Shown here: positions 3,301-59,500 of the stretch, piece after piece | Numbering within the stretch: the stretch's first letter is position 1 | Layout: every line of letters starts with the position of its first letter | From: Atrina japonica | Lineage: Eukaryota; Mollusca; Bivalvia; Pterioida; Pinnidae | Assembly (NCBI GenBank): GCA_030159075.1 | Contig: BROG01000227.1 | Location: 372,001 to 436,000 of the forward strand | Direction of reading: 5' to 3' | Length of the DNA: 64,000 bases | Program-made: the position numbers and the translations under genes | The notes under the pieces: generated by a model | Told to the model about the DNA's origin: nothing | What the model saw: the letters and a program-made list of their open reading frames with translations, nothing else | The model's database searches: none

Positions 3301-6039
3301 TGACCCCTGAAAAATATTGGACTCGTCTGTAAATCAATAACTTTTACCAGTCCAAATGTGTCTTTAGGGGTGAATGGGTTAAGTGAGAGTCTGAAATGTA
3401 AGGTGGCCTCCCTAGCACGGGGGTATTTAGGTGTAGGCGATTTTCCACTGTAGATCCAATGTAGAATCCACGAGCTGCTTATGATATATGATTAGAATAT
3501 TCCAGAGATATTTTCTATGGTTTTTAAAGCAAATTTTTTTTCTGTATAGGTGTATTATTCTATGGACCTCCTGGTACTGGAAAAACTTTACTAGCCAAAG
3601 CAATAGCAACAGAGTGCTCCTTAAATTTCCTGAGGTATGGTCATCTGACTTACATTCTTTATATTTCTGCATTTGTAATTGTATTTTCCTAGGTTGTTTT
3701 AAAGTCACATAAATCTTGATGAAAAGCTAAAGAATGTTACCAGATCTTGGTTTACTCATTCTACCACCTGGTAGTCTATGTTTTGAAATAAACTTTGGCA
3801 CTTTTTTTATTTTCTCATAATGTGACAATTTTTTATAACCATATTAGATTCATTTACAATTTCATCATCAAAATTTCTATTTTCCACTAATGCTGTCCAT
3901 AACCTTTTTTTCAGTGTAAAAGGACCAGAGCTAATTAATATGTATGTAGGTCAAAGTGAACAGAATGTTAGAGAAGGTCAGTAATTAGTTCATGGTTTCT
4001 TAATTAATTTGAAATTGTAACGATTGTAGATTTTAAATACTGTATATTTTCTATGAGCAATGATGTAAATGAATTCACATGTTTCACATTGTTGTTATTT
4101 TATCTCAAAAGTGTTTATGATTTGCTGAATTATATCACATAACCAGTTTGAAAAAAAATCATATTACCCTGGAGCATGCACCCAAGGGAATAAAAACCAT
4201 AATATTATTACCCTGAAGCATGTGCCCACTGGGGAACCTCGTGATTACATGTATTATATCAATCAGAGTTATTGTTCTTAGTAGTAGAACAATAACAAAG
4301 GCAGATGACCTAAAAATGTTTTCAGCAGGTAAAAGTTCAAAATAAGAGATTATTGGACAAAAAAGATGCGGTGACTTAGTGCTCTGTGAAAGGAATGTGT
4401 ATATGGTTTAAATCAGTTAAAATTACCAGCAACAAACTAGTTTATCTGAAAACAGTTTTATTTTTCTTCAATTACAGTTTTTGAAAGAGCAAGAAGTGCT
4501 TCTCCTTGTGTTATATTTTTTGACGAGTTGGACTCTCTGGCCCCTAACAGGGGAAAATCTGGAGATTCTGGAGGAGTGATGGATCGTGTGGTGTCACAAC
4601 TGTTAGCGGAGTTAGACGGGCTTCACAAATCCTGTGATGTATTTGTTATTGGTGCTACTAATAGACCAGATCTACTGGATCCAGCTTTACTTAGACCAGG
4701 GAGGTAAGTTCATGGGATATAATTGTATTAGGTGTGAATAACAGACCAGACCTACTACTTCCAGCCTTACTTAGAAGAGGGAGGTGAGTTTATGTGATAT
4801 ATTAGGTGTGACTAACAAACAGGAATTACTGGATCCAGCTTTACTAAGACCAGGGAGGTAAGTTCATGTGATATACTGGATCCAGCTTTACTAAGACCAG
4901 GGAGGTAAGTTCATGTGATATACTGGATCCAGCTTTACTTAGACCAGGGAGGTAAGTTCATGTGATATACTGGATCCAGCTTTACTAAGACCAGGGAGGT
5001 AAGTTCATGTGATATACTGGATCCAGCTTTACTTAGACCAGGGAGGTAAGTTCATGCAATATATTAGGTGTGAATAAGAGACCAGACCTACTGAATCCGT
5101 CCTTATATAGAACAAGAGAGGTAGGAAATTTGGCACTTAGACCAGAAAGGTACCGGTAGGTTTATTAATGTAAATAATATGGGAATGAAAGTTTCTTGTC
5201 AAAGGTTATTATCATTAAATATTATTTTATAATATGATTATCATTAATCAGCAGTTTGGGGTTTTTCCCCTTTCTATTATTTTGATTTTTGTAATACAAA
5301 TAGCAAATTCCCTTTTCTTTTTTTTTCAGGTTTGAGAAAATGCTGTACCTTGGTGTGTCTGGTGATAAAAAGTCAAAGCTCAACATAGTTAGGGCTCTGA
5401 CTAGAAGGTAAGGTTGAATGACAAATAAATTATCTCAGTTGAAACAAGCCTAGTACAGAAAAAAAAATATTCTATTTATAATCCAGTCAATTCCATATAT
5501 AAATACTTCAAATTTTGGTACATTTTGTTGATTAGATGCCATGGTTTTTGTTTCAGGTTTCAGCTTTCGAAGGATTTAGACTTGGAAACTGTGGTAGAGA
5601 AGTGTCCGAACAACCTTACGGGGGCCGATTTTTATGCACTCTGTTCTGATGCTATGCTGAATGCTATAAAAATGAAAATCCAGATGTTGGAAAATGGTGT
5701 GTATTATGTATTTGCAAAGTTCAGTGGAATCTCATTATCTCGGAATTCACGGGACTATCCCAATTACTTAGAGATATCCAAAATTCTAGATAACTGAAAT
5801 TTTTAATTTACATATTTTTTCTAGCAAAAAAAATCGTGAATAGCCACTCAACTTTGACATATCTGTCGTCTCTATTTACAGGGGAGACAACTGATCAGGC
5901 TAACATTGAGGTTACAGAAGAAAATTTTATGTCGGCACTCTCCAATTTGACACCATCAATATCCGAAATAGAACTACAGCGATATGAAGAGATGAAAGGT
6001 TTTTTCTCCAATAAAAAGCAGACAACACTACCTGAATAG
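340..6039 (+). CDS. PEX6: Peroxisomal biogenesis factor 6 (AAA+ ATPase), 3' part
   Basis: Eight exons: 340-478, 2846-2966, 3550-3634, 3915-3976, 4478-4703, 5330-5407, 5557-5696 and 5882-6039. All have AG/GT borders and join in one frame to give the C-terminal 335 residues; the N-terminal half lies before the window. PEX6 forms a hexamer with PEX1 and extracts ubiquitinated PEX5 from the peroxisome membrane, driven by ATP. Seen here: a linker ending [16 protein letters not shown], then WEDVGGL at the start of the D2 ATPase, Walker A GPPGTGKT (3564-3587), [14 protein letters not shown], Walker [10 protein letters not shown] (about 4510-4536), and the second region of homology [18 protein letters not shown] ending at 4703. 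The AAA lid follows, with [14 protein letters not shown] and a C-terminal [14 protein letters not shown]. This order and the two-base phase of each junction match vertebrate PEX6 as remembered. All D2 catalytic motifs look intact. The 47-bp repeats just after 4703 copy the exon end and its donor. Possible polyadenylation signal at 6533-6538. Confidence 0.96.
559..732. mobile_element. Small TIR element (pogo/Tigger-like MITE), PEX6 intron
   Basis: Begins cagtcaaacttgcatta after TA and ends with a diverged form of the inverted end (acaagtttaacagta). It shares interior phrases (gggcacct, ttcccttgagtggcc) with the better-preserved copy at 2631-2814. No coding capacity. Family assignment rests on the TA target and the CAGTCAAAC-type terminus. 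Confidence 0.6.
750..1840. repeat. Diverged tandem duplications ending in a bivalve-type repeat terminus
   Basis: Two sets of copies with a period of roughly 160-170 bp. The first set (about 750-1290) repeats tcctgcacatcttacagg and aaaattgcaaattcatgac. The second (about 1300-1700) repeats gcaaagatctacaaaaaagt and gaaattgtcaggtc three times. The block ends near 1836 with caggtgaccgttaagg and cccattgggcctcttgttt. Its reverse complement resembles the start of the element at 33671-34151. It is probably an old minus-strand interspersed repeat that expanded internally. It lies in a PEX6 intron and no gene is seen. Confidence 0.6.
2631..2814. mobile_element. TIR MITE with TA flanks (pogo/Tigger-like)
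   Basis: The 5' end cagtcaaacttg and 3' end caggtttgactg are inverted repeats with one mismatch, each next to TA. The 184-bp interior has no ORF. It lies just upstream of the PEX6 exon at 2846, only 31 bp from the acceptor. Related copies are at 559, 16255, 24111, 48516, 50342, 59815 and 60117. Confidence 0.75.
4704..5160 (+). repeat. 47-bp tandem array copying the PEX6 exon end and its 5' splice site
   Basis: Five near-identical 47-bp units start at 4828, 4875, 4922, 4969 and 5016. Each contains actggatccagcttta, accagggag and then gtaagt, which is the last 31 bases or so of exon 4478-4703 plus its donor. A diverged copy lies at about 4744-4797 and another, more degraded, at about 5078-5125. 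The array sits in the intron directly after the source exon. In the PEX6 frame each copy reads AGG TAA at the junction, so use of any later donor would give an immediate stop. Confidence 0.93.

Positions 6040-59500: not shown

Follow-up and report, generated by a model that had tools for sequence, protein, structure and literature searches.

The closest described counterparts of the arrays considered here are the 'mirages' of amphioxus, minisatellite-like tandem duplications of exon–intron borders found in the globin genes BflGb6 and BflGb9, in Adh3 and in others (PMC3087553). Their units measure 10–160 bp, the number of repeats differs between haplotypes, and regular splicing is unaffected, as judged by Adh3 data and globin RT-PCR (PMC3087553). 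The lancelet PGBD5 gene carries 60 and 108 bp repeats at its splice borders, and the authors of that study, who infer correct splicing of PGBD5, also name globin, Adh and troponin C among the genes with mirages (PMC3902484). Variable tandem repeats also lie at exon–intron borders in human genes, where minisatellite expansion reaches the boundary; as far as the study is available, these sit mostly inside exons of segmental duplicates, novel introns and alternative transcripts are proposed for them, and no multiplied donor beside an intact exon end is described (PMC2812944). In potato, intron gain by tandem duplication is reported for an RdRp gene (PMC4974935).

No mollusc case of a border array was recognised in the open-licence papers searched. 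An abalone TSSK1-like gene contains an intronic minisatellite, and an earthworm metallothionein gene contains intronic repeats together with duplicated exon-4 copies that are omitted from the transcript; the available parts of these reports place no array on an exon border in either gene. The human IFI6 (6-16) minisatellite starts at an exon–intron border and has a donor in each 12 bp unit, with inner donors used in transcripts. In the model of Rogers, introns are reportedly gained through tandem duplication of AGGT, and human tandem-array introns are said to have been described by Zhuo in 2007.

The window analysed here, a 64 kb stretch of bivalve DNA, contains arrays of the same kind as the amphioxus mirages, and the phenomenon itself is not new. 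Four exons, in PEX6, TRMT6 and a START-domain gene, run out into a minisatellite that repeats the exon end together with the 5' splice site. As in the amphioxus cases, the units span the border and unite a piece of exon with a splice signal, are present in many copies and occur in several genes, here three unrelated ones. The likeness to IFI6 lies in a repeat that runs from an exon–intron border with one donor per unit. Intron gain by AGGT duplication likewise pairs a GT with an AG; there a new intron is created, whereas here the duplication lengthens an intron between conserved coding sequences. The present arrays add what is probably another phylum and a donor-only pattern within a single window. 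The amphioxus mirages lie at both 5' and 3' borders, in contrast to four donors and none of 31 acceptors in the bivalve window; this mixture of borders is a property of the amphioxus set and is not needed for each array. The amphioxus length differences and normal splicing rest on sequencing and RT-PCR, while the bivalve arrays are known from the sequence of one haplotype.

The original observation is confirmed: all four arrays lie where it had placed them, as established by a tandem-repeat finder (TRF) and copy lists. Copies recur at 48 and 43 bp in the two START-gene arrays. In PEX6, steps of 47 bp occupy the middle of the array, with steps of 74–80 bp on either side, and the TRMT6 array proceeds over its first half by steps of mostly 59 and 49–50 bp, set within a 220 bp higher-order repeat. 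The true junctions were defined by tblastn with proteins of six relatives and by alignment of homologous proteins. At each of the four, tblastn shows the protein running on from copy 1 into the next real exon. The exonic copies code for residues conserved in other bivalves, so duplication proceeded from exon to intron. By protein homology, the exon is the source of the units and copy 1 carries the authentic donor. The claim that the units are unrelated to one another holds for five of six pairs; the exception, PEX6 against TRMT6, gives an alignment score of 14 that was reached by 0 of 200 shuffles, a similarity attributed to the common donor consensus.

In PEX6, the last 45 bases of the D2 exon (4478–4703, plus strand) constitute copy 1, and the true donor GT lies at 4704, as placed by tblastn (P0001; 96% identity over 4477–4704) and PDB alignment. 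The protein resumes in the next exon (5330–5407) across a junction that reads LLRPGR/FEKMLY, and solved relatives were found for PEX6. The array (4659–5149, plus strand; 4659–5063 by TRF alone) advances, according to its copy list and donor scores, in 74–80 bp steps, between which a sub-unit of 47 bp recurs. Its eight intronic copies follow at steps of 80, 74, four times 47, 75 and 29 bp; the final two copies are weak, with 17 and 18 of 32 matches. This spacing suggests that an older unit of about 75–80 bp came first and that a 47 bp part of it expanded later. The top protein matches share 78–80% identity; of the 120 matches listed, the highest among those with a name is Tegillarca (71%), and vertebrate PEX6 proteins outrank this bivalve by E-value. 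A simple gene-predictor model took the PEX6 array copies for exons and fused genes, and it was replaced by protein-guided exons. On the minus strand at 11217–11793, an open stretch of about 190 codons may represent a single-exon gene or element; it gave no Pfam match at an E-value of 0.001, with a weak GRDP-like resemblance at 0.055.

TRMT6 presents a more diverged version of the same arrangement. The last 49 bases of its exon at 23221–23345 (plus strand; tblastn P0131, 88% identity) form copy 1, the donor GT lies at 23346, and the next exon (24630–24675) is reached through the junction LERQG/GYGKVIHF; TRM6 in the PDB is a solved relative. TRF, the copy list and donor scores delimit the array at 23297–24464 (plus strand), unbroken to 24096 and continued by scattered copies, with half-unit matches extending to the far end. 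Donors were analysed in 18 of the 27 copy matches, the nine others being weaker or covering half a unit. The best TRMT6 protein matches are bivalve (Crassostrea, 63%), and no stray TRMT6 relatives were found in bacterial and viral sequence collections. Similar-looking dispersed sequences of the form 'gaccacct...tataaagaccacct' were noticed by eye at 24100–24260, 48540–48700 and 50340–50530, the first of them inside the TRMT6 array region, and are probably an interspersed repeat. In another TRMT6 intron, about 49 copies of a 42 bp unit form an array (21037–23107) whose minus strand is open for 637 codons, with MDTSSTVWVDMCEC and variants repeated; this openness probably has no other cause than a unit of 14 stop-free codons. 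The reading frame is likely spurious, of a kind that gene finders would call.

The START-domain gene, on the minus strand, contributes two arrays, and both of its junctions were placed by tblastn (P0121, P0123). In the exon at 57383–57594, the last 34 bases are copy 1 and the next exon lies at 56243–56155; the array (57087–57416) has a period of 48 bp and six intronic copies, and the intronic steps are all exactly 48 bp. In the START-domain exon at 53302–53370, the last 31 bases are copy 1 and the next exon lies at 51091–50995; the array (52173–53332) has a period of 43 bp and 26 intronic copies, with all steps at 43 bp except one of 44 and with the GT kept in 24 of the 26. Both arrays are defined by TRF, copy lists and donor scores, and the junctions read TIQREVN/RIWSRED and HTNLSG/SYMGKG. 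The joined exons match the Pfam START domain (PF01852, E 2.7e-9), no solved structure in the PDB was matched by them, and the best protein matches are again bivalve (Pinctada, 47%). Taken together, the matches of the three proteins point to a probable bivalve host, perhaps one of Pteriomorphia. A two-unit block that has lost its donor (GGCAAATATG) is present twice in the 43 bp array, 473 bases apart, which suggests that blocks of several units were copied together.

How these arrays relate to the surrounding repeats was assessed across 37 merged arrays (TRF rows with a period of at least 13, leaving out mono- and dinucleotide rows and rows overlapping those already used), which occupy 23.3% of the bases in the window; 20 of them are at least 200 bp long. 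Eight of 30 introns are 56–86% array, and four of these eight are the donor-anchored introns. The comparison covers 30 donors and 31 acceptors from three genes, with the start of the first exon approximate in both TRMT6 and the START gene, and with a START acceptor near 58625, which failed the AG check through being placed one base off, still counted; further genes may exist at 30–44 kb.

The departure from chance is found on the acceptor side. At 20 nt into the intron, none of the 31 acceptors lies within an array against a mean of 7.2, and only one of 3190 rotations of the annotation gave zero. Array occupancy is 0.8% in the last 50 bases before the acceptor, 13.7% in the first 50 intron bases and 22–27% at 150–600 bases, and it returns to background about 100–150 bases from acceptors. 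The array of at least 200 bp that comes closest to any acceptor is a 36 bp array (18387–19341, plus strand) that stops 39 bases short of the TRMT6 acceptor at 19380, and a 28 bp array (28805–29390, plus strand) stops 77 bases short of 29467, where the last exon of TRMT6 has its acceptor. Four TRMT6 introns show such a gap, of 39–114 bases, before the acceptors at 19380, 20515, 23221 and 29467, and within 16707–29466 three more introns of this gene are 76–84% array with a repeat that includes no exon border. Exons are likewise spared: none is covered whole by an array against 5.8 expected, a result given by 0.5% of 1729 rotations.

Donors, by occupancy, are no hot spot, whereas acceptors are a cold spot. 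At +20 nt, 4 of 30 donors lie within arrays against a mean of 7.0 under rotation; 2993 of 3190 rotations gave at least four and 456 gave four or fewer, under a null that treats coding exons as open to arrays, although resistance of exons should lower both sides alike. A local-repeat test asked for a copy within 1500 bases of the 45-mer over each junction, at a score of at least 30 of 45. By this measure, 4 of 30 donors are repeated and 0 of 31 acceptors (the START acceptor at 48880 scored 22, under the cut), but so are 118 of 600 random 45-mers from the window. The claim that chance does not readily give four such arrays is weak and only partly borne out: by occupancy, donors do not exceed background, and the number of donor-edge arrays stands out mainly against the stricter nulls described below.

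This pattern is probably explained by tolerance: minisatellites arise throughout introns, those that span a donor survive, and those that reach an acceptor are removed. Short tandem duplications would arise at many sites in these introns. Where one covers the end of an exon along with the 5' splice site, copy 1 would stay joined to the exon with its donor in place, splicing from this first donor would leave the mRNA unchanged, and the later copies, decoys included, would be intronic and spliced out with the intron. The intronic copies could then multiply and diverge as any minisatellite does. Duplications touching the branch point, the polypyrimidine tract or the acceptor would instead be eliminated by selection, because extra AGs and altered spacing would enter the 3' splice site. 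The donor would thus act as a short signal that works despite the copies downstream, and the acceptor, which depends on a branch point and a pyrimidine tract, would be intolerant. We infer that cells splice from the first donor, that the asymmetry is due to selection and that the copies arose by slippage or unequal exchange. The original prediction had offered, as one of two readings, that only arrays in which the first donor wins are tolerated, and this reading agrees with donors at or below background, with the avoidance of acceptors and with the cost of choosing a decoy.

That cost is apparent from the copies themselves. In 55 of the 57 copies examined, a stop codon interrupts the reading frame before the decoy is reached, and the remaining two bring a frameshift, so that for a working gene the exon-proximal donor would have to win. 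The splice signal recurs in many units, not all: full-strength donors, whose score lies within one unit of that of the real donor, are present in 6 of 8 intronic copies in PEX6, 2 of 17 in TRMT6, and 6 of 6 (48 bp) and 22 of 26 (43 bp) in the START gene. 'Many decoy donors' is therefore a fair description of three arrays and a weak one for TRMT6, where 9 of the 17 copies have no GT; these, like two of the 26 copies in the 43 bp array, are unusable as donors. As expected of neutral decoys, the 43 bp array shows no lower diversity in the donor 9-mer than in the remainder of the unit (0.078 against 0.070; 25 of 26 intronic copies). In the 48 bp array the 9-mer is less diverse (0.074 against 0.229; six copies), which could mean that decoys are kept, with 10% of 9-base windows equally low. 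Donor 9-mer diversity gave no consistent signal, across the 43 and 48 bp arrays, of selection keeping or purging decoys.

Other observations sit less easily with tolerance. The difference between donors and acceptors is uneven across distances (P 0.024, 0.023, 0.083 and 0.008 at 5, 20, 40 and 60 nt), and 4 of 30 donors against 0 of 31 acceptors gives 0.053 by Fisher's test. Amphioxus arrays occur at acceptors too, so acceptor avoidance is no general rule (PMC3087553). Donors may, moreover, be seeded more often than tolerance predicts, which leads to the strongest rival explanation: a mutational process that starts tandem duplications at exon–donor borders more than elsewhere, for example by breaks or slippage at transcription-linked R-loops or by microhomology at AG/GTRAGT.

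We regard such seeding as rather unlikely, and the evidence on it depends on the null. Four arrays have a donor at their edge, and all four border arrays are on the donor side. Random placement in which no array covers or lies inside an exon predicts 1.5–2.7 donor-edge arrays (P of at least four, 0.055–0.27), and plain rotation of all arrays predicts 1.8 (P 0.094); these looser nulls speak against seeding, as does a donor occupancy under the background mean. Rotation of the 20 arrays of at least 200 bp predicts 1.3 (P 0.031), and stricter nulls, which limit coding overlap to 50–60 bases, predict 0.57–1.6 (P of at least four, 0.004–0.07); these favour it. Of 1729 rotations, no more than 4 with all arrays and 8 with the large ones left every exon uncovered and put no array inside an exon; at least four donor edges were present in 75% and 25% of these, which are too few to rely on. 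The joint outcome of at least four donor-side and zero acceptor-side arrays has P 0.003–0.018 in one set of nulls and 0.015–0.025 in another, but the donor pattern was picked post hoc in one window, so that these P values overstate the evidence, and donors set against acceptors alone give no more than the Fisher value above. The donors of the four exons also score somewhat higher, with a mean of 4.8 against 3.1 for the remaining 26 (P 0.07), and several amphioxus genes carry border arrays (PMC3087553, PMC3902484). A modest donor excess is possible. The border-preferring duplication process favoured in the original prediction is not needed, since random positions are repeated more often than donors, although the stricter nulls leave a small excess. 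It is doubtful, in the same measure, that duplications in bivalve and lancelet are seeded at exon–donor borders through the 5' splice site or transcription, that this feeds intron growth and that the coding-constrained first copy re-seeds the array.

A benefit from the decoys themselves, by which serial 5' splice sites attract U1 snRNP and strengthen the exon or guard a long intron from premature polyadenylation, is very unlikely. Most copies of three arrays have a full-strength donor and the 48 bp array has a less diverse 9-mer, as such a benefit would predict, but young arrays keep everything, the 43 bp array keeps its donor no better than the rest of its unit, and TRMT6 has few strong donors and many copies devoid of GT. 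Equally improbable is an artefact in which the assembler created or multiplied the copies. The TRMT6 higher-order repeats and the repeated blocks of the 43 bp array are structures that assemblers mishandle, and one amphioxus mirage is reported to have been aberrantly assembled (PMC3087553); yet substitutions separate the copies in all four arrays, periods differ by locus and the window holds many unrelated arrays, although the number of copies may be inaccurate even so. Nascent intron gain or recursive splicing, in which each AG/GT would act as paired acceptor and donor for stepwise removal or new introns, is extremely unlikely: a unit with an intact donor does run GT...AG and rejoins as AG/GT, and the AGs of the 43 bp array score 1.1–1.8 where kept, within the range of real acceptors, but those of the other three arrays score at most −0.6, below all but one of the 30 scorable real acceptors, and the flanking coding sequence is continuous with that of relatives, with no new exon seen. 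The suggested link to intron gain by AGGT duplication found no support here, the arrays lengthening introns that separate conserved coding sequence.

The four arrays extend the lancelet mirage phenomenon to what is probably another phylum, four times in 64 kb. They also recast it: in this window, donors are unprotected from minisatellites and acceptors are protected. The contrast between donor and acceptor opens a clean genome-wide test of how well each splice site tolerates duplication, and the arrays themselves are natural minigenes, with up to two dozen donors of similar strength, for studying how the spliceosome chooses the exon-proximal site.
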